A stretch of DNA of 51,204 nucleotides from Euzebya sp. (lineage in GTDB: Bacteria; Actinomycetota; Nitriliruptoria; Euzebyales; Euzebyaceae): assembly GCF_964222135.1 (NCBI RefSeq), contig NZ_CAXQBR010000086.1:1-51204 (forward strand), read 5' to 3'. The notes under the pieces were generated by a model. It was not told the origin of the DNA. It did no database searches and saw only the letters and a program-made list of their open reading frames with translations. Shown here in pieces: positions 1,897 through 43,382 of this stretch (positions are counted from its first letter, which is position 1; the number at the start of each line of letters is the position of its first letter). Position numbers and translations under genes: made by a program.

Positions 1897-2402
1897 GGTG
1901 TCGTTCTCGATCCGGCCGCCGGCGAGGGGGACGTAGGGGAGGAAGGCGAGCCCGGCATCTGCGCAGGCGTCCAGCACCGGGTCGGACGACCGGTCGGTGA
2001 GGTTGTAGCGGTTCTGCACGCTCGCGATCGGGACGATGTCCCGCGCCTCGGCGAGCTGGTCCGCCGAGACGTTGGACAAGCCGACGTGGCGGACCTTCCC
2101 GGCGTCCCGCAGCTCGGCGAGGGCGCCGACGGTCTCGGCGAACGGCACGTCCGGATCGGGGCCGTGCAGCTGGTACAGGTCGATCACGTCCAGGCGGAGC
2201 CGGCGGAGGCTCGCCTCGCACGCCTCCCGGAGGTGGGCTGGGGACCCGTCGCGTCCCCACGCCTGCGGCGACGGGCGGGTCGACCCGCCCTTGGTCGCGA
2301 TGACGAGCTCCTCTGGGCCCCGAAGCCCATGCGTCGGACGGTCATGTCGCCGCCGATGTCGAACGTGCCGTGCTCGTCGGTGATGATGCTGCCGCTGCTC
2401 AT
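1897..2402 (-). pseudogene. Aldo/keto reductase remnant with internal deletion
   Basis: A good start (ATG at 2402 with AAGGTGGAG upstream) opens an aldo/keto reductase N-terminus with the MTVRRMGFGAQ segment. At about 2311 the homology jumps to another frame and resumes at ELVIATKGG, then runs through YQLHGPDPDVPFAET and VRHVGLSN to FLPYVPLAGG. The missing part, roughly 45-60 residues by family comparison, carries the catalytic Asp/Tyr region. The usual C-terminal section (PxAxxxAxAW...IPG) is also absent; the frame runs on into unrelated sequence. An out-of-frame internal deletion plus 3' loss means no active reductase can be made. It is divergent from the DUF72 gene. Confidence 0.75.
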
Positions 2403-2433
2403 GGGCTCCACCTTCCCCGGGTAGGGGGAGCCC

Positions 2434-3168
2434 ATGCTCCGGATCGGGACCAGCGGCTGGCACTACGACGACTGGCGAGGGGTGGTGTACCCCGACGATC
2501 TGGCGAAGAGCCGGTGGTTCGGCCACTACGCCACCCTCTTCGACACCGTCGAGATCAACGCGTCGTTCTACCGGTTGCCGACCGAGCGGATGGTCGACGG
2601 GTGGCGGGAGCAGGCCCCCGAGGGGTTCTGCTACGCGGCCAAGGGCAGCCGGTTCACCACCCACAACCTCAAGATCGGCGGGGACCGGCTCGAGGGGTCG
2701 GTCGAGCTCGTCACGGGGCGGCTGCGCGGGCTGGGTGCCACCCTCGGGGTGATCCTGTGGCAGCTCCCCCCGAACCTCCACCACGATCCGGCCCGGCTGG
2801 CGCGCTTCGCCGGCACCCTGCCGGGGTGGACCCGGCACGCGGTGGAGTTCCGCCATCCGTCCTGGACCGCCGACGACGTCGACGAGGTCCTCGCCGCCCA
2901 CGGCATCGCGCGCGTGTGGACGTCGGCAGCCGACGTGCCGCAGCCCGCGCGGGCCACCACCGCCTGGGGGTACCTGCGGTTCCACGGCCTGGGCGAGGAC
3001 CCCTACCGGTGGGACTACGCCGACGACGAGCTGCGCCCGTGGGCGGAGCGGGTCGCCGCGATCGTGGCGGGAGGTGAGGACGCGTTCGTGTACTTCAACA
3101 ACGACTACGACGGCCACGCGGTCCGCAACGCCCAGCGCTTCGCCGAGCTCGTCGACGCCTGCCGGTGA
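2434..3168 (+). CDS. DUF72 family protein (YecE-like)
   Basis: A 244-residue protein covering the whole DUF72 (YecE) TIM-barrel family. It starts with the hallmark IGTSGWHYDDW (residues 4-14), followed by EINASFYRLP (about 36-45), the AAKGSRFTTH strand, the VEFRHPSW block and a C-terminal YFNNDYDGHAVRNA segment. The family's function is not established. The ATG at 2434 follows the GTAGGGGGAG purine run closely. Upstream is the divergent, broken aldo/keto reductase. Its stop is three bases from the convergent lipase maturation factor stop, and the junction holds an 11-base motif also seen at two other minus-strand gene ends. Confidence 0.88.
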   Translation: MLRIGTSGWHYDDWRGVVYPDDLAKSRWFGHYATLFDTVEINASFYRLPTERMVDGWREQAPEGFCYAAKGSRFTTHNLKIGGDRLEGSVELVTGRLRGLGATLGVILWQLPPNLHHDPARLARFAGTLPGWTRHAVEFRHPSWTADDVDEVLAAHGIARVWTSAADVPQPARATTAWGYLRFHGLGEDPYRWDYADDELRPWAERVAAIVAGGEDAFVYFNNDYDGHAVRNAQRFAELVDACR

Positions 3169-3171
3169 CGC

Positions 3172-4620
3172 TCAGGCGGTGTGCCGGCGGGTGGGCGGTC
3201 GACGGATCGGCGGCAGGAACTCCCCGACCGGCTCGACCACCCAGAAGTCACCGGTCGCACGCCGCTCGTCGGGGGTGGTGAAGCGGTAGCGGCAGCGGCG
3301 CGCGCGGATCCACCGCGGCTGGCTCGGGCTGAAGGGATCCAGGGCGAGGAGACGGCGGATGGCCGGCCGCCCCTCGAGGAGCCCCTCCACCAGGCGGCGG
3401 AACCAGACGTCGTGACGTCCGGCGTGCGGCGTCATCGCGGCGAACCACATCAGCCAGTCGAGGCGCAGGTGCCAGGGCGCGACCTGCGGTGGGCGGCGTG
3501 CCGGGTCGCCGGGCTTGCCCTTGAACGCATACGTCCGCCACTCGGTGTCCGGTGCGTCGGGATCCTCGGCGTCGGTGCCCTCCAGCACGATCTCGTAGCG
3601 GGTCCGGGTGACGGACCCGAAGGCTCCGTAGGTGCCGACGAGCCTGAACCGGTTGAACGCCGCGTTCATCAGCTGGTCGGGACTCATCATGTTCCGCACC
3701 GGGCGCCACGACATCACCAGCACCATCGCGGCGACCGCCAGGGTGACGGCCCCGAGCCAGGCGGGCAGCCCGCCGTCGCCCGCGGTGTCGACGGGCAGCC
3801 AGCCGAGCCACGCATCCGGCACCGCGCTGAGGGCGAGGACGACGGTCACCGCGTTCAGCCACGCGAAGTTCCCGGTCAGGATCAGCCAGCCCTGCGTCGC
3901 GATCACCGACACCGCGGCGATCCCGGCGACCGGTTGGGGCAGAAACAGCCCGACGGGCATGACGAGCTGGGTCACGTGGTTGCCGGCGACCTCCACGCGG
4001 TGCCACCAGCCCGGCCGGGTGTGCGCCCACCACGACAGCGGGCCGGGGATCGGTTGGGTCTCGTGGTGGAAGTCGAGGCAGGTGAGATCACGCCAGCAGG
4101 CGTCGCCGCGCAGCTTGATCAGCCCGGCCCCGAACTCGATGCGGAAGAGGAGCCACCGCACCGCGAGGATCGCCGCCCAGGAGGGGACGTCGGCATCGCT
4201 GCCGAGGAAGGCGGCGACGAACCCCGCCTCGAGGAGGATGGTCTCCCACCCGAACGCGTACCAGATCTGGCCGATCGTCACGATCGAGAGGTACAGCGCC
4301 CACAGGACCAGCCAGAGGGCCAGCGGCACCCAGGACGGTCCTCGCTGGGGGAGCCCGAGCGCCATGGCCAGGGACACCGCGGCCGCAGCCCAGCAGGTGC
4401 GGACCACGAGGTCGTCGGAGTACCGCCACGCGAAGACCGTGAGCTGGTGCCGGGGGTCGAGCCGCTCCACGACCCGACGCGCGGGCAGGAGGCCGTCGTC
4501 GCCGAGGAGGCCACGCCACCCCAGGGCCGCGTTCGCGAAGGCGAGCGCGTAGAGGGCCCCGACCAGCCGTGTGAGCAGCCAGCGGGCTCCCTCGTACCCC
4601 TCGGCGGCGAGCCAGTCCAC
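3172..4620 (-). CDS. Lipase maturation factor family membrane protein
   Basis: A 482-residue polytopic membrane protein related to lipase maturation factor (LMF1). Family blocks include GWETILLEAGF (124-134) and the RIEFGAGLIKLRGDACWRDLTCLDFHHETQP region (160-190, described by its key residues), then several membrane segments and a soluble C-terminal domain with WHLRLDWLMWF. In animals LMF1 helps lipases fold in the ER; the bacterial role is unknown. The start is a GTG at 4620 with AAGGAG seven bases upstream; the frame continues much further without homology. The rhodanese gene is divergent, 125 bases away. Confidence 0.88.
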   Translation of the reverse strand: MDWLAAEGYEGARWLLTRLVGALYALAFANAALGWRGLLGDDGLLPARRVVERLDPRHQLTVFAWRYSDDLVVRTCWAAAAVSLAMALGLPQRGPSWVPLALWLVLWALYLSIVTIGQIWYAFGWETILLEAGFVAAFLGSDADVPSWAAILAVRWLLFRIEFGAGLIKLRGDACWRDLTCLDFHHETQPIPGPLSWWAHTRPGWWHRVEVAGNHVTQLVMPVGLFLPQPVAGIAAVSVIATQGWLILTGNFAWLNAVTVVLALSAVPDAWLGWLPVDTAGDGGLPAWLGAVTLAVAAMVLVMSWRPVRNMMSPDQLMNAAFNRFRLVGTYGAFGSVTRTRYEIVLEGTDAEDPDAPDTEWRTYAFKGKPGDPARRPPQVAPWHLRLDWLMWFAAMTPHAGRHDVWFRRLVEGLLEGRPAIRRLLALDPFSPSQPRWIRARRCRYRFTTPDERRATGDFWVVEPVGEFLPPIRRPPTRRHTA

Positions 4621-6218: not shown

Positions 6219-6309
6219 CGCGCCTCGTCGAGGGCGCGGTCATGGTCGCTCGCGCGACCCCGGTCGTGGCCCCGGGAAGGCGCGGCGATGGCCACCGGCT
6301 CGGCGCGGT

Positions 6310-24147: not shown

Positions 24148-24996
24148 GTGCCCGCCCAGACGATCCGCCGCATCGACGTCGGCGACACGACCCTCCCGCT
24201 GGCCGACGACGGCGGTGACGGCCCGCCGGTGCTGTTCGTGCACGGCGCGGTGGCGGACCTGCGGCTGTGGGACCGCCACCGGGCGCTGCTCGGGGGCCGG
24301 CACCGCGGGATGGCGCTGACCCTCCGGTACCACGGGCTGGACCCGTGGGCCGAGGGATGGCCGCCGTACGGCGTCGGCACGCACGCCGATGACCTCATCG
24401 CCGTGCTCGAGCAGCTCGGACCGGTGCACGTCGCCGCGTGGTCCTACAGCGGGCAGGTGGTCCTCGACGTGGCGCTGCGCCGGCCCGACCTGGTGCGGAG
24501 CGCGCTGGTGCACGAGCCGGGCGTGCCGAGCGCGGTGACCGATCCCTCGGCCCTGGCGGCGTGGCGGGCGGCGGCCGCGGCCGCGTTCGCCCCGGTGGAG
24601 GCCGCCCTGGCCGCTGGCGACGACGTGGCGGCGATGACCGCGCTGCTCGACAGCTCCGGCGGTGGGCCCGACTACGTCGCGTCCCAACCGGCGGCCTCCC
24701 GGCGGGTGCAGGTGGAGAACGCCCGGACCGTGCGGTTGCTGTTCGCCCAGCAGCCGCCGCCCCGGATCGGTCCCGCCGAGCTCGCGGACCTCGCGGTCCC
24801 GGTGCGGATCACCCTGGGGGAGCGGAGCGGTCCCCTCTACGCGGTCCCGGCCGCGGCGATGCAGGTGGCGATCGCCACCGCGACCCACCGGGTGGTCCCC
24901 GGGGCGGGCCACATGTGGCCCGACGAGGACCCGGCAGCGTTCAGCGACGCGGTCGTCGCGCTGATCGCCGAGGTCGGGTCCCCGCCGGGTTTCTGA
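24148..24996 (+). CDS. Alpha/beta hydrolase
   Basis: A 282-residue alpha/beta-hydrolase. Oxyanion motif LFVHGAVADLRLW (28-40), strand TLRYHGLDPWAEG, nucleophile elbow AWSYSG with Ser99 (S-Y-S-G instead of the common G-x-S-x-G), late His in VVPGAGHMWPDEDP. The acid residue is probably in the ITLGERSGPLY region, where the usual Asp is replaced by Glu-Arg-Ser-Gly, as in some family members. The GTG start follows the YdeI stop with no gap. The substrate is unknown. Confidence 0.85.
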   Translation: MPAQTIRRIDVGDTTLPLADDGGDGPPVLFVHGAVADLRLWDRHRALLGGRHRGMALTLRYHGLDPWAEGWPPYGVGTHADDLIAVLEQLGPVHVAAWSYSGQVVLDVALRRPDLVRSALVHEPGVPSAVTDPSALAAWRAAAAAAFAPVEAALAAGDDVAAMTALLDSSGGGPDYVASQPAASRRVQVENARTVRLLFAQQPPPRIGPAELADLAVPVRITLGERSGPLYAVPAAAMQVAIATATHRVVPGAGHMWPDEDPAAFSDAVVALIAEVGSPPGF

Positions 24997-25005
24997 GCTG
25001 AGTCC

Positions 25006-25532
25006 TCAACACCGCCCGAGGCTGTCGGTGAGGCCGTCGCCGACCTGCGCGGCGGGGACGAGGAGGAGGGTCGGGACGGGGGCGCCGGTCGCGCAGATCG
25101 CCGCGCCGGTCTCGGTGGGCAGCCGGTCGAGCTCGGTCAGCAGGATCGGCTGCTCGGTCGTCGCGGCCAGGCTGGCGCCGGTGAGGGCGAAGGCCCAGCC
25201 GTCCTCGGTGCCGCCCGGGGTGATCAGGAACCCCGCGGGCTCGACGGGCCAGAGCTGGTCGGCGATGGCGGCGGCGGTGGCGAAAAGGTTCGGCCCGGCG
25301 ACGCGGGTGTGCGCAGCGCCGAGGGCGGTCGCGGTCGCATCGGTGACGGCGGCGTCGCCGCCGAGGACGACCAGCTCCGCGTCAGGCCGGTCGCTGAGCC
25401 ATGCCTCGGTGGCCGGGTGGGGGGCGTCGGTCGCGGTGAGGAGGATGGGGGCTCCGCGCGGAGGCCGACCCAGCCGGCGGCGAGCAGCGTCGCGACCGCC
25501 CCCACGGCCATGGCAAGCCGCCGCGGGGGCAT
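25006..25532 (-). pseudogene. Cell-wall-binding repeat 2 protein, deleted and frameshifted
   Basis: A signal peptide (MPPRRLAMAVGAVATLLAAG, start 25532) is followed in a different frame by a cell-wall-binding repeat (CWB2): GAPILLTATDAPHPATEAWL, AELVVLGGDAAVTDA, RVAGPNLFATAAAIAD, then GGTEDGWAFALTGASLAATTEQPILLTELDRLP, named here by their key P-I-L-L-T and V-L-G-G. The switch is near 25450. The first half of the repeat is missing, so an out-of-frame deletion joined the signal peptide to the middle of the repeat. The 3' end looks complete. Such proteins anchor to secondary wall polymers. The remnant overlaps the toxin-like gene on the other strand at its 5' end. Confidence 0.6.
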
Positions 25533-25544
25533 CGACCTCGACGA

Positions 25545-26006
25545 GTGACACGGGGCCGGCCGACACGGCCGCAGTTCACCAAGGCCGCCGCCGCCGACAT
25601 CCGCCGCCTCGCGACAACCGACCGGGCCCTCGCGGAGATGGCGCTCCGTCTGGCAGTCCGGATCCACGACGGCCACGTCGACGGCGTCCCCCTCAACGAC
25701 CGGACCAAGACCGGTGACCTCCGCGACTGCTACAAGGCGCCGTTCGGCCACGACCCGCTCAACCCCACCCACCGACTCGTCTACCGGCGAGTCGGCGCGG
25801 CCCTCGAGGTGGTGGAGGTCATCGCCGTCGGACCCCGCCAGGACGACGCGGCCTACCTGATGGCTGGACTGCGGATGGACCGGATCACCGACCCCCGCCG
25901 CTCCCTCGCCGAGAGGATCGTCCACCGCGTCCTCACCCGCTTCAGCGCGCCGACCGACGGCCCAGTGTCAGGTCTCAGTGAATCTGCGCAATGGGTAGGC
26001 CGATGA
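25545..26006 (+). CDS. RelE/ParE-family toxin-like protein, no clear antitoxin
   Basis: A 153-residue protein with the RelE/ParE-fold pattern. An N-terminal helix pair (FTKAAAADIRRLATTDRALAEMALRLAVRI) leads to LRDCYKAPFGHDPLNPTHRLVYRRV (key T-H-R-L-V-Y-R) and VVEVIAVGPRQDDAAYLMAGLRM (key V-I-A-V-G-x-R-x-x-x-x-Y). It probably is or was an mRNA-interferase-type toxin. The last 13 or so residues are encoded by the left end of the inverted-repeat element, so insertion replaced the native C-terminus. A 79-residue frame ending in GTGA overlap just upstream lacks antitoxin features. It may therefore be an orphan, or decayed. Confidence 0.65.
   Translation: MTRGRPTRPQFTKAAAADIRRLATTDRALAEMALRLAVRIHDGHVDGVPLNDRTKTGDLRDCYKAPFGHDPLNPTHRLVYRRVGAALEVVEVIAVGPRQDDAAYLMAGLRMDRITDPRRSLAERIVHRVLTRFSAPTDGPVSGLSESAQWVGR
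25966..26001 (+). repeat. Left terminal inverted repeat
   Basis: Begins TGTCAGGTCTCA, then with one gap matches the right repeat at AA-CTGCG, AATGGG and GCC. By hand alignment, about 28 of 36 positions agree. It contains the stop codons of both the toxin-like gene (plus strand, just after) and the unknown minus-strand gene. Confidence 0.65.
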
Positions 26007-26690
26007 GCAGGAGTTGTGCTGCGCATCTCTGTTGCGGGGACGGCTACGACGGTGTGGGCTCCCGGGGTGGCCACACCATCTCCCCTCCCTCTCCAGGTCT
26101 CCCCGTACCCAGAGGGGTACTGAGGGCACCCGGTCTGCCTTGCTCTCGAGGTCGCCGCGGACGGGCCACCAGGCGCGCTTGGTGAGCGGCCGGCCGACGA
26201 TGGCTTCGCCCGCCGCCCGCAAGCGCTGCGGGATCCGCGTGCCGTCTCCGAACGGGCGTTGGAGCAGTGCCTCGGTGAGCTCGGCGATCTCCGGAGCGAG
26301 AAGAACCGTGGGGAGGGCTGGGAGGACCGGTCGACCTCGGAGCGCCGGTGCGGCTTCCAGCACCCGCTCTTCGGCGACCGTTGCGAGGTTGCCCCACGTG
26401 CGCCAGTGTTCGACAGTGCGAAGGGCGAGGAGCACGTCGTGTTCGACATGGCGCCAGGCGTGGCGCTGAACGATGACGTTCAGACGGCGCTGGGCGTCGG
26501 CGATCGCGGGCCGCACGCTGCGCGGGCCGTTGACGAGTATCCGTTCGTGAGTGTCGCCGGCGAAGAACCAGGGCCTGAGCCAGGCGGCCCTGTGGGCATC
26601 GTCTCGTTCGATGAGGCAGTCCGTGCATGGATTGCATCGCCCGAACGGCCCGACCGGGACGTGTCGTCGTTGGATGCCGTTGGTGAACGG
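25968..26690 (-). CDS. Unknown protein fragment with Cys pair, no start codon
   Basis: About 240 residues in a frame with natural codon use (mostly G or C in third positions). It has a CNPCTDC cysteine cluster near the visible N-terminus, aromatic and Arg-rich helices (LRPWFFAGDTHERILVNG; QRHAWRHVEHDVLLALRTVEHWRTWGNLATV) and a central LLAPEIAELTEALLQRPFGDGTRIPQRLRAAG region. I do not recognise it. No ATG, GTG or TTG lies between the upstream hydrolase fragment and CNPC, so its 5' end was probably lost at a junction near 26695. Its stop codon lies inside the left terminal repeat, as transposase genes often do, but no catalytic DDE pattern is evident. Confidence 0.4.
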   Translation of the reverse strand, partial: PFTNGIQRRHVPVGPFGRCNPCTDCLIERDDAHRAAWLRPWFFAGDTHERILVNGPRSVRPAIADAQRRLNVIVQRHAWRHVEHDVLLALRTVEHWRTWGNLATVAEERVLEAAPALRGRPVLPALPTVLLAPEIAELTEALLQRPFGDGTRIPQRLRAAGEAIVGRPLTKRAWWPVRGDLESKADRVPSVPLWVRGDLEREGRWCGHPGSPHRRSRPRNRDAQHNSCSSAYPLRRFTET

Positions 26691-26695
26691 ATCGC

Positions 26696-27053
26696 TCAGG
26701 TCAGCGCGGTACGGGTCACGGGGTTGCCGAGCAGGGTGGGCAGCGCGCCGCGGATGGCCCGGACCAGCTTGACCGACGCGAACAGCGTGCTGTGGAAGAC
26801 CTTGGCCTGCACGTCGGTCCAGAAGCCACCTGGGTCCAGTGCCACGACATCGCGGCCGAGTCCCCGCCGGGCCATCCCGAGGACCAGGCGGGCACCCATC
26901 GACGAGCCGGCCATGTCGACGTCCTCGAGCCGCTGCGCACGCATCCACTGCTCGAGCGCGTCCGCGGTGGCGGCCACCGTCTCCTCCGACAGCGCCGGGG
27001 TCCGGCCGTGGCCCGGCAGGTCCGGCGCGATGACCGTCCGGTGGGGTCTGGTC
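26696..27053 (-). pseudogene. Alpha/beta hydrolase fragment, truncated at both ends
   Basis: The frame starts inside the fold at RTVIAPDLPGHGRTPAL. It runs through a nucleophile elbow GSSMGA and VVALDPGGFWT, and stops after LLGNPVTRTALT, which in relatives continues for another 80 or so residues. The oxyanion-hole strand and the catalytic His region are missing. The 5' edge abuts the stop of the monooxygenase gene, and the 3' edge abuts the unknown Cys-pair frame. Both edges are likely recombination junctions within the inverted-repeat element. Confidence 0.6.
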
Positions 27054-27056
27054 TGG

Positions 27057-27365
27057 CTAGGGGAGCTTGACCGCGAGAACGTCGGCCGGGAGGATCTCCG
27101 GGGCTGCGCCGAGGAGCTGCTGGTTCGACGTCAGGGCTTCGACGATCGCGCCGTTGGCGTGGGCGTTTCGAGCGTCCTCATCGCGGAACGCGTCGAAGAT
27201 CCAGAAGGTGTCGGGGTCGGTTCGGACTGCGAACCAGACGATGGTGCCCTCCTCCTGGTTCGCGAGGTCCACCGCGCTTGCCAGCAGGGTGGCGAGCGCG
27301 TCGTGCTGGCCATCGGCCGCGACGATCTTCGCAACGAAGGCGTAGGGGAGTGAAGGGGCGGACAT
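27057..27365 (-). CDS. Antibiotic biosynthesis monooxygenase (ABM) domain protein
   Basis: A 102-residue ABM/YgiN-like ferredoxin-fold protein: YAFVAKIVAADGQHDALATLLASAV (8-32), NQEEGTIVWFAVRTDPDTFWIFDAFRDEDARNAHANG (named by key E-x-G-x-x-x-x-x-V-x-x-D-P-x-x-F-x-x-F-D-x-F-x-D), then LQ-like C-terminal helix and strand ending VLAVKLP. Members are cofactor-free monooxygenases or quinol/aldehyde-handling enzymes. AAGGAGA sets the ATG at 27365. It is divergent from a GlxA-type regulator, 103 bases away, which probably controls it. Both genes are intact inside the inverted-repeat element. Confidence 0.85.
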   Translation of the reverse strand: MSAPSLPYAFVAKIVAADGQHDALATLLASAVDLANQEEGTIVWFAVRTDPDTFWIFDAFRDEDARNAHANGAIVEALTSNQQLLGAAPEILPADVLAVKLP

Positions 27366-27455
27366 CGGGGTCTCCTTGGGTGTCGAGTGGTTGTGGTGCG
27401 ACGCCAACGTACGCGGAGCTTCCGGGCAGGACGATGGCGCATGCGACTGGTTTGC

Positions 27456-27461
27456 TATCGT
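27456..27461 (+). promoter_or_regulatory. Leaderless-type -10 (TATCGT)
   Basis: TATCGT ends seven bases before the ATG at 27469, with no ribosome-binding site. It gives the regulator gene a leaderless-type promoter facing away from the monooxygenase gene. Confidence 0.5.
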
Positions 27462-27468
27462 TTGCGTC

Positions 27469-28410
27469 ATGCGACTTGGCATGATCGCCCTCGACGGCTG
27501 TTTCGGTTCGGCCGTCGCATCGATGATCGACATCGTGCGGGTGGCTGACGGAGTTCGGGGCGACGTCGACGCAGGCGCCGGCCCGATCGAGCTCGCCATC
27601 GTCGGGCCGAAACGACGGGTGACGACGTCGACGTCGATGATCCTGCCGGTTCGGCATTCGCTGTCGGAGCTGGGTGACTTCGACGTGATCGTCGTCCCTG
27701 CCCTGGGCACCCTGACCGCCGAAGCCACCTTCGACGCACTGCGAAGCCGAGGTGCGCGTTCGGTCATCCAGGCGCTTGGCCGGCTCGATGGTGCATCCAC
27801 CCGGATCGCTGCTGCATGCACCGGTGTGTTCGCAGTGGCCGAATCCGGACGTGCGCACCGCCGGCGGGCGACGACCAGCTGGTTCCTGGGCCCGGAGTTC
27901 CGGCGGCGCTACCCGACCGTGGACCTCGATCTGGACACCATGGTCGTCGTCGACGGAGGTCTTGTCACTGCGGGGGCCGCCTTCGCCCACATCGATCTCG
28001 CGCTGTCACTCGTGCGATCGATCAGCCCCGACCTCGCGCAGCACGTCGCCCAGCTGCTCCTGATCGACCACCGCCCATCGCAGGCTGCCTTCGTCGCCTA
28101 CGAACACCTGCAACACGAAGATCCGATCGTCGTGGACTTCGAGCGCTACGTCCGCGCCCGCCTGGACGAACCGTTCGACGTCGCGTCCGCAGCCCAGTCG
28201 ATCGGCACCAGTCGGCGAACCCTCGAACGACGAACACGATCGGCGCTCAACCTCACTCCGCTCGGCTTCGTCCAACGGCTTCGCATCGAACGAGCTCGTC
28301 ACCTCTCGGCGACCACCGACCTCACCTCCGCTGAGATCGCCCTGCGGGTCGGCTACGCGAACGCCGAGACACTCCGCTCCCTCCTGCGCAGAGATCGACA
28401 CCGAGCCTGA
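27469..28410 (+). CDS. GlxA-family transcriptional regulator (DJ-1/PfpI plus AraC HTH)
   Basis: A 313-residue regulator. The N-terminal DJ-1/PfpI-like domain (1-185) contains IVVPALGT, the nucleophile-elbow region AAACTGVFAVAESG (key A-x-C-T-G) and TTSWFLGPEFRRRYP. The C-terminal AraC domain (about 215-310) has SAAQSIGTSRRTLERRTRSALNLTPLGFVQRLRIERARHLL-like sequence (key S-x-R-T-L-x-R and P-x-x-F-x-x-x-x-R) and IALRVGYANAETLRSLLRR. The start is set at MRLGMIALDG; a longer frame upstream looks unnatural. Codons carry more A/T than neighbouring genes, in line with acquisition by transfer. Its stop is eight bases from the right terminal repeat. Confidence 0.88.
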   Translation: MRLGMIALDGCFGSAVASMIDIVRVADGVRGDVDAGAGPIELAIVGPKRRVTTSTSMILPVRHSLSELGDFDVIVVPALGTLTAEATFDALRSRGARSVIQALGRLDGASTRIAAACTGVFAVAESGRAHRRRATTSWFLGPEFRRRYPTVDLDLDTMVVVDGGLVTAGAAFAHIDLALSLVRSISPDLAQHVAQLLLIDHRPSQAAFVAYEHLQHEDPIVVDFERYVRARLDEPFDVASAAQSIGTSRRTLERRTRSALNLTPLGFVQRLRIERARHLSATTDLTSAEIALRVGYANAETLRSLLRRDRHRA

Positions 28411-28417
28411 GCGCAGT

Positions 28418-28452
28418 GGCTGCCCCATTCGCAGGTTTCGTGAGACCTGACA
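28418..28452 (-). repeat. Right terminal inverted repeat
   Basis: Read on the minus strand it begins TGTCAGGTCTCA and then matches the left repeat through AA-CTGCG, AATGGG and GCC with one single-base gap. It lies between the regulator stop and the dif-like site. Confidence 0.65.
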
Positions 28453-28493
28453 GGCCCCAGACCGTTGACTCGGCCCCAGCCTGGATCCGCCCG

Positions 28494-28521
28494 GTGCCAC
28501 ATAACGTAGATTATGTAAACT
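28494..28521 (+). promoter_or_regulatory. dif: dif-like XerC/XerD recombination site
   Basis: Arms GTGCCACATAA and TTATGTAAACT flank a six-base centre CGTAGA, the exact 11-6-11 layout of dif. Compared with E. coli dif (arms GGTGCGCATAA and TTATGTTAAAT, centre TGTATA) I count 7/11, 9/11 and 4/6 matches. The near-invariant inner bases CATAA and TTATGT are intact. It sits as an AT-rich island in a convergent intergenic region. XerCD would resolve chromosome dimers here during division. Confidence 0.7.
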
Positions 28522-28542
28522 GCTCCTGGATCGCACGTCCAG

Positions 28543-28582
28543 GATGTGCAGGTCGGCCACCTGAGCGGCCCACCTGCACATC
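28543..28582. terminator. Long hairpin next to dif, between convergent genes
   Basis: GATGTGCAGGT (28543-28553) pairs perfectly with ACCTGCACATC (28572-28582). After a C/C mismatch, GGCC pairs with GGCC, leaving an eight-base loop. It lies between the ends of two convergent genes (stops at 28410 and 28601) and so can serve as a bidirectional terminator. Its closeness to dif (22 bases) also allows a role in terminus biology. Confidence 0.6.
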
Positions 28583-28600
28583 GGACGAGCCAGCCCGCGG

Positions 28601-29272
28601 TCAGTCGTCCGCGCGGTCGGTGCCGGCGAACTGACGGCCGGCCCGCTCGACCTGGAGCCCGTCGTGCAGCTGGTCCTCGGTCAACCACACCGTCAGGGTC
28701 CCGTCGGAGCTGACGTGGTCGACGCGGATCGGGTCGTAGGCCGCGAGGCGCTGGACGTGGGACTCGTCGTCGTCCCACACCGCGACGGTGACGCCGCGCT
28801 GGGCGGCCGGGACGGTGTTGGACATCCGGGAGCCGATGATCCCGCCGACGAACCAGGCCCCCGTGGCCCCGAGGATCGCGCCCGTGATGACCATCCACAT
28901 GATCCGCATCCACAGGGGCTGGCCCCCGAGGTCGATGGCCCACGCGAGCGGGATGAACAGCGCGCCCACGACGATGGCCGCGAGCACCGTGATGGGCACG
29001 GCGCCCCACAGCATCTCCTTGGTGTGCGCCGGCAGGCCGGGGCCCATCAGCAGGCCCTCGCTCTCCTCCTTCATCTCCGACCGCAGCTCGGCGACGACGT
29101 CCTCGCGCACGTCGACGCGCGTCTCGATGCCGTCGCGGGCGAGGTCGGCACGCAGCGCGTCGGCCGTGGGCTCGTCACGGACGACGACCAGCAGGTGGGC
29201 GGGGTCACCGACCGCGCGCGGCTGGCCTGACATCCGCTGCTCGGGTGTGGGGCGTGCGTCGTCGATGCTCAT
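28601..29272 (-). CDS. Membrane protein with stress-protein-like N-terminus, unknown
   Basis: A 223-residue protein. The N-terminal soluble part (about 25-70) has HLLVVVRDEPTADALRADLARDGIETRVDV, resembling the ferredoxin-like start of general stress protein 17M-type domains. Two glycine-rich membrane helices follow (about 93-115 and 130-152), then a C-terminal soluble part (about 160-223) with VTVAVWDDDESHVQRLAAYDPIRVDHV, a second domain of similar type. It may sense or respond to stress at the membrane; the function is unknown. The ATG at 29272 has AAGG nine bases ahead. It ends 19 bases past the dif-side hairpin. Confidence 0.75.
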   Translation of the reverse strand: MSIDDARPTPEQRMSGQPRAVGDPAHLLVVVRDEPTADALRADLARDGIETRVDVREDVVAELRSEMKEESEGLLMGPGLPAHTKEMLWGAVPITVLAAIVVGALFIPLAWAIDLGGQPLWMRIMWMVITGAILGATGAWFVGGIIGSRMSNTVPAAQRGVTVAVWDDDESHVQRLAAYDPIRVDHVSSDGTLTVWLTEDQLHDGLQVERAGRQFAGTDRADD

Positions 29273-29371
29273 CTGGGGGGCCTTCCGGTCGTCCTCCTCG
29301 TGACCGTGGCCCTACCCGGCACCGTCCCGGCGATCACCACCCGACGGTGACCCCGGCTCCGCCCCGACCGC

Positions 29372-30016
29372 TCAGGCGGTCAGCTGGTACCGCTTCGGCG
29401 CCCGGCCGGCGGCGCCGGTCTCGACCGGGTCGAGCTCGGTGAGTCGCCCCATCTCCTGCAGCTTGTCGAGCACGGCGCGGACCGTCGACCGGCTCGCATC
29501 GGCGCGGTCCACCAGGTCGTTGATGGTGAAGGGCCCCTCCCCCATCGCCTCGTACACCTTCTCCATCGCGCTGCCGGCCTCGAACGGCCCCTCCCCGTCG
29601 CCACCCGGTGCGGCTGCCACCGGCGCATCGGCCGCCGGGACCGCCGCCTCGTACGCGAGCTCGGCATCGGGGTCGGCGTAGGCGCGGGCCTCCTCCGAGA
29701 TCCCCATCCCGGCCTCGCGGAGCACCTGGAGGGGCACGCCCTCGTAGAAGAAGTCGTCACCCGTCACGCGGTTCGCCTGCGACCACTGCCCGGCGAAGGC
29801 GATGAAGTCCGCCTCGAGGTCCGGCAGGTAGGTGGCGGGGTCGGAGGCGCGGCGCCACTCGGCGCGGAGCAGGACGCGGCGGACGGGGTCGGTGGCCTCG
29901 GCGATCTGCGAGGCGAGCTCCTCCACCTCGTCCCAGTCGACCGCCGTGTTGGGGTCCTGCAGCGCTTCCAGGTACGCGCGCACCGCTTCGTCGGCGACTC
30001 GAGCTCCCCGAACCAT
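29372..30016 (-). CDS. Winged-helix domain protein of unknown function
   Basis: A 214-residue protein starting with the helix MVRGARVADEAVRAYLEAL, followed by an acidic helical region (about 20-100), an Ala/Pro/Gly-rich linker (about 110-143) and a C-terminal winged-helix domain. That domain contains MEKVYEAMGEGPFTINDLVDRADASRSTVRAVLDKLQEMGRLTEL (key I-N-D-L and S-R-S-T-V-R). It looks like a small DNA-binding regulator, but the N-terminal domain is not one I recognise. AGGAGG five bases upstream sets the start. Its stop codon lies inside the recurring 11-base motif CGCTCAGGCGG. Confidence 0.75.
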   Translation of the reverse strand: MVRGARVADEAVRAYLEALQDPNTAVDWDEVEELASQIAEATDPVRRVLLRAEWRRASDPATYLPDLEADFIAFAGQWSQANRVTGDDFFYEGVPLQVLREAGMGISEEARAYADPDAELAYEAAVPAADAPVAAAPGGDGEGPFEAGSAMEKVYEAMGEGPFTINDLVDRADASRSTVRAVLDKLQEMGRLTELDPVETGAAGRAPKRYQLTA

Positions 30017-42440: not shown

Positions 42441-43382
42441 TCAGTGCGCGGCGACCCCGTCGCCCCGGCGGGACGTCCAGGCCTGCTGGGCGGCGACCAG
42501 CGGGATGCCGACGATCAGGCCGAGGATGGCCGAGGCGATGGTGTTGACGATCCAGGCGAGGATCCCGCCGGCGCCGTCGACGGCCTCGCGGATCGCCTCC
42601 TCCCAGCCGTGCACCAGGTCGTACGGGGCGTGGAACCCGAGCTCGTCGAGGCCGATCAGCTCGATGTGCCCGCCGACCCACAGCATGGCGGCGGTGCCGA
42701 TGATGGACAGGGCGGTCAGGACGCGCGGCATCGCCGTCACGAGCGAGCGCCCCAGCCTCGCCGACGCCCCCTCCCCGGAGGAGGCCAGCCGCACGCCGAC
42801 GTCGTCCATCTTCACGATCAGGGCGACCGCGCCGTAGACCACGACGGTGATGGCGATCGCGACGATGACGAGGATCGCGAGGCGGCTGAGGAACCCCTCC
42901 TCGGCCACCTCGTTGAGGGCGATGACCATGATCTCAGCCGACAGGATCAGGTCGGTGCGGATCGCCCCGGCGACGACGGTGTCCTCCGACGGGGGCTCGT
43001 CTCCCTCCTCCCCGCCGTGCCCGTGCCCGCTGATCGCGCCCCAGATCTTGTGGACGGCCTCGTAGCACAGGTAGGCGCCGCCGACCATCAGGATCGGGGT
43101 CAGCAACCCGGGCAGGAACTCGCTGAGCAGCAGCGCGGCCGGGAGGATGATCAGCAGCTTGTTGCGGAACGACCCGACCGCGATCCGCTTGATGATCGGC
43201 AGCTCGCGCTCGGCTGCCAGGCCGTGGACGTACTGCGGGGTGACGGCGGCGTCGTCGATGACCACGCCGGCGGCCTTCGTCGCCGCCCGGCCGGCGGCGG
43301 CGCCCACGTCGTCGATCGAGGCCGCCGCCAGCCGCGCGAGGGCGGCGACGTCGTCCAGCAGGCCGAACAGCCCGCCGGCCAT
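42441..43382 (-). CDS. DUF808 family membrane protein (YedI-like)
   Basis: A 313-residue membrane protein. DUF808 signatures are MAGGLFGLLDDVAALARLAAASIDDV at the start (key L-D-D and A-S-x-D-D), a middle ALAAERELPIIKRIAVGSFRNKLLIILP region (key E-L-P-I-I-x-x-I-A-x-G-S-x-x-N-K), the TDLILSAEIMVIAL helix and a Gly/His-rich loop (GHGHGGEEG). Five to six membrane helices are predicted by eye. Function unknown. It is convergent with glgC and 63 bases from glpD on the same strand. Confidence 0.92.
   Translation of the reverse strand: MAGGLFGLLDDVAALARLAAASIDDVGAAAGRAATKAAGVVIDDAAVTPQYVHGLAAERELPIIKRIAVGSFRNKLLIILPAALLLSEFLPGLLTPILMVGGAYLCYEAVHKIWGAISGHGHGGEEGDEPPSEDTVVAGAIRTDLILSAEIMVIALNEVAEEGFLSRLAILVIVAIAITVVVYGAVALIVKMDDVGVRLASSGEGASARLGRSLVTAMPRVLTALSIIGTAAMLWVGGHIELIGLDELGFHAPYDLVHGWEEAIREAVDGAGGILAWIVNTIASAILGLIVGIPLVAAQQAWTSRRGDGVAAH

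Follow-up and report, generated by a model that had tools for sequence, protein, structure and literature searches.

The locus raises the question of whether a 28-bp element in an intergenic gap is the chromosomal dif site of this actinobacterium, and whether it marks the replication terminus, as an earlier note had proposed. We analyzed the whole 51,204-nt stretch (the window), which is an entire contig (C86) of a draft assembly (111 contigs, 5.06 Mb, 97% complete). The element at 28494–28521, GTGCCACATAACGTAGATTATGTAAACT, reads on the plus strand as GTGCCACATAA (28494–28504), the central hexamer CGTAGA (28505–28510) and TTATGTAAACT (28511–28521), which confirms the proposed 11-6-11 layout and the close match to XerCD dif sites. 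By comparison with relatives, the left arm is the XerC-side arm and the right arm the XerD-side arm. The latter is identical to the right arm of B. subtilis dif, and it matches the right arm of E. coli dif at 9 of 11 positions. The 28-mer is AT-rich (36% GC vs. 65% in the surrounding intergenic DNA).

The gap that holds the site is 190 b long (28411–28600) and, as had been noted, lies between convergent genes, the plus-strand gene ending at 28410 and the minus-strand gene at 28601. To the left is an AraC-type regulator with a DJ-1/PfpI domain (27376–28410, plus strand; Pfam HTH_18 and DJ-1/PfpI) and to the right a hypothetical protein (28601–29272, minus strand) that gave no match in the Pfam search. 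The earlier count of gene orientations (22 of 29 plus-strand to the left, 12 of 20 minus-strand to the right) was only partly reproduced by our GC3-based gene calls: the plus-strand excess on the left was recovered (19 plus, 6 minus) and the minus-strand excess on the right was not (9 of each). Further to the left, a plus-strand ORF at 25545–26006 has a weak match, below the cut-off, to ParE toxin.

The dif-like consensus CATAA-N6-TTATGTNAANT has one exact match in the window, where 0.02 would be expected even with 3 mismatches, and this is the single match in the whole draft genome with up to 2 mismatches allowed. The full 28-mer is likewise unique in the genome at up to 3 mismatches (control, 0), so the search for a second copy came out in favor of the dif reading. 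The exact 28-mer was absent from the viral contigs searched, no plasmid record covered the greater part of a 201-b stretch containing the site, the only hits being partial ones of 37 b in Rhodococcus plasmids, and an Rfam search of the window found no family. Among the relatives, two genomes of the same genus (G002 and G003) and one of the same family (G004) have exactly one site each, with at most 1 mismatch. An order-wide scan at this threshold gave one site each in 11 of 19 genomes and no match in the other 8. The congener Euzebya pacifica (G001) is among these 8, and its best dif, with 2 mismatches, is at 3,133,063–3,133,090 of the complete 5,799,875-b chromosome, i.e. 54% of the way round from a numbering in which dnaA is at position 394. 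The central hexamer varies, being CATAGA in E. pacifica and G002, GAAAGA in G003 and TATATA in G004. A location in the terminus region, opposite oriC, is thus seen directly in E. pacifica. The genome under study is a draft, and the position of the window contig relative to oriC is known only through this relative, by way of the octamer polarity and synteny described below.

According to the earlier note, GC skew should turn at the site, and this was not borne out, as the cumulative skew in the window peaks at 6291 and reaches its minimum at 43042. In E. pacifica the GC skew follows the coding strand, on which it is negative, and not the replication strand; leading- and lagging-strand genes have much the same 4-fold GC skew. 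Since the skew tracks the coding strand, cumulative GC skew is unusable as a terminus test in this lineage and was rejected, and we therefore searched for leading-strand-biased words instead. The gene strand bias of E. pacifica does change over around mid-chromosome, with its best break at 2.8–2.9 Mb (56% plus before, 41% after). Separately, the 4-fold AT skew of its leading-strand genes was about −0.135, vs. −0.07 to −0.08.

In an unsupervised search of 0.9 Mb sampled from E. pacifica, with all 7-mers ranked by leading-strand bias, GGGGGAG was the most strand-skewed word (180:42, z 9.3; others 6.5 and lower), and TGGGGGAG was found at 58:6. The best change point for GGGGGAG polarity was 3,130,959–3,134,437, an interval that brackets dif within 3.5 kb. 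GGGGGAG forms the core of the AIMS octamers published for actinobacteria, (T/C)GGGGGAG and G(A/T/C)GGGGGA, which are credited to Hendrickson and Lawrence (2006) and place dif in C. aurimucosum with a leading:lagging ratio of 856:61 (PMC2830990). The same octamers locate dif in C. pseudotuberculosis and C. variabile (PMC3022926, PMC3219685). As in Corynebacterium, these octamers converge on dif, and their core emerged unprompted from our search; the bias is weaker than 856:61 and is seen here in Nitriliruptoria. As with E. coli KOPS, GGGNAGGG, the octamers are polar, favor the leading strand and converge on dif. GGGGAGGG was skewed 76:26 in the E. pacifica sample; unlike in E. coli, however, GGGCAGGG was not skewed toward dif (52:73) and the preferred core is GGGGGAG. 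The KOPS motif GGGNAGGG itself, B. subtilis-like SRS and Lactococcus motifs were tried as well and had no clear or consistent polarity across E. pacifica.

The window and the sequences of G002, G003 and G004 were not used to find GGGGGAG and served as held-out data. In the left arm of the window (1–28493) the plus strand prevails, with 12 plus and 4 minus matches to GGGGGAG and 5:0 for TGGGGGAG, and in the right arm (28522–51204) the minus strand, with 2 plus and 12 minus matches and 0:5, respectively. Thus 24 of 30 GGGGGAG matches agree with a flip at dif (permutation p 0.0014; change point 24816–29537), the left arm being the noisier one with 4 of 16 reversed. The counts to the left and right of dif were 21:1 and 1:11 in G002 (32 of 34 agree), 17:1 and 1:11 in G003 (28 of 30) and 11:0 and 0:7 in G004 (18 of 18). 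The polarity of TGGGGGAG agreed throughout (window 10/10, G002 11/11, G003 11/11, G004 9/9). In other families the polarity of GGGGGAG also flips at dif in G010 and G016, and on the sides that are available it is the same in G010, G012, G013, G016 and G018. With the published octamer set the counts in the window were 16:6 on the left and 1:15 on the right, and the best change point (24815–25687) falls one match away from dif, which, like the noise in the left arm, speaks against the dif reading. Congeners at first seemed to differ in the orientation of dif relative to the AIMS, but this idea was abandoned, as reverse complementation leaves a convergent pattern unchanged.

Polarity of this kind could reflect mutation bias alone, with no guiding of FtsK, and the shifted AT skew in the leading-strand genes of E. 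pacifica does indicate some mutational asymmetry. We consider this explanation rather unlikely, as GGGGGAG stands out from all the other 7-mers. Moreover, per-stretch counts in E. pacifica, judged by eye, showed both a higher density and a higher bias of the word within about 1 Mb of dif, and AIMS are defined by strand bias together with an abundance that rises toward the terminus (PMC5993296). Even if mutation bias were the whole cause, the assignment of the 28-mer as dif would stand.

Synteny bears on a different alternative, namely that a mobile element that exploits Xer (IMEX) left the 28-mer behind as its attachment site, or that the contig is a plasmid with a dif/cer-like site of its own. 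From about 29.4 kb up to its right end, the window has largely the same gene order as the dif flanks of E. pacifica, G002 and G003, whereas to the left of dif the gene order is shuffled relative to the congeners, except for the gene adjoining dif. This AraC-type neighbor has a 94% identical homologue in G003 (tblastn) that also adjoins dif there. The segment at 26259–28410 shares 90–94% identity with the corresponding place in G003, and nothing in the dif flanks of E. pacifica, G002 and G004 matches it, a pattern that, from the sequence comparison, suggests a recent exchange or insertion beside dif. Material may thus have entered next to the site, and this is what speaks for a mobile element. 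Integration would, however, leave two dif-like copies, whereas one exists and no second was seen in the 97% complete draft, and gene order in the right arm follows that of the E. pacifica chromosome beside its own dif, which makes an IMEX or plasmid origin very improbable. That the 28-mer fits the dif consensus by chance, the site being short and degenerate, is the least credible alternative of all and is refuted by an expectation of about 5e-5 exact consensus matches in 5.06 Mb at the base composition of the genome, by the single copy, by conservation in relatives where AIMS polarity flips and by the convergence in held-out genomes.

Taken together, the 28-mer is almost certainly the chromosomal dif of this actinobacterium of Euzebya (or its GTDB equivalent), with the XerC arm on the left, the XerD arm on the right and FtsK presumably steered by polar octamers. 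This reading is supported because the site is unique, is conserved as one copy per congener, lies mid-chromosome opposite dnaA in E. pacifica and coincides with the switch in AIMS polarity. Its two 11-bp inverted arms, 6-bp center, conserved XerD arm, single copy, intergenic location and place in the terminus region are those of the XerCD/dif systems of E. coli, B. subtilis and Corynebacterium. The left arm and the central hexamer differ from those of the model species, and no functional difference was seen. The claim that a replication terminus is marked here holds for the terminus region, and should be read as a region and not as the point where the forks meet; a 2011 survey argued that fork meeting need not fall exactly at dif (PMC3025954). 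The same survey predicted dif in all 66 single-chromosome Actinobacteria it covered (PMC3025954). Dif is a standard part of most bacteria, and the site is correctly assigned but ordinary, another case of a known element. Its value is that a reliable dif and terminus marker is now placed in a draft genome of the little-studied class Nitriliruptoria, that the Corynebacterium AIMS octamers are polar around dif in a distant class too, and that in these high-GC genomes they mark the terminus better than GC skew does.

As in the model systems, two Xer recombinases and an FtsK with a gamma domain are encoded. XerD (contig C24) and XerC (contig C97) each score above the NCBIfam cut-off, and both translations show the catalytic R-K-HxxR-H-Y motifs. 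Which protein is XerC and which XerD is our reading of the translations, not of family searches; on the same basis xerD appears to adjoin a thymidine phosphorylase-like gene and xerC to lie between dprA-like and sigma-factor genes. FtsK (contig C70) has alpha, motor and gamma domains, the last of which can be aligned to the solved FtsK gamma structure 2ve8/2ve9. KOPS-type octamers load FtsK and orient it toward dif, where its gamma domain activates XerD and so starts recombination between two dif copies (PMC5357621). All that was seen in this genome agrees with this scheme. By analogy, the left arm would be bound by XerC and the right arm by XerD, and septal FtsK would be steered to dif by the GGGGGAG-type octamers pointing at it from both arms. 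Activation of XerD by FtsK would then let a chromosome dimer recombine between its two dif copies, giving two monomers. We infer XerC/XerD binding, cleavage and dimer resolution at the 28-mer from these parallels, and GGGGGAG is the putative word read by FtsK gamma.

A side observation made outside the window is more interesting than the window's dif. The second replicon of E. pacifica corresponds to plasmid NZ_CP031166.1 (571,580 b; 100% identity over the 8 kb tested), and AIMS polarity on it converges at 302,597–303,876, with 78 of 93 octamers in agreement in samples taken from 70 to 530 kb. Inside this interval is a palindromic dif-like site, GTCATAATGGGGATTATGAC, and a tyrosine recombinase gene (301,924–303,117, minus strand; Pfam Phage_integrase) starts about 75 b away from it, gene and site together occupying positions 1924–3217 within G001:C2:300001-320000. 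No palindromic dif-like site of the GTCATAATGGGGATTATGAC type was found in G000. It is conceivable, if somewhat short of probable, that the 572-kb replicon has a private single-recombinase dif module at which FtsK would resolve it, the chromosome being resolved via XerCD and dif. Among other plasmid recombinases, the nearest share about 30% identity with that of the megaplasmid.
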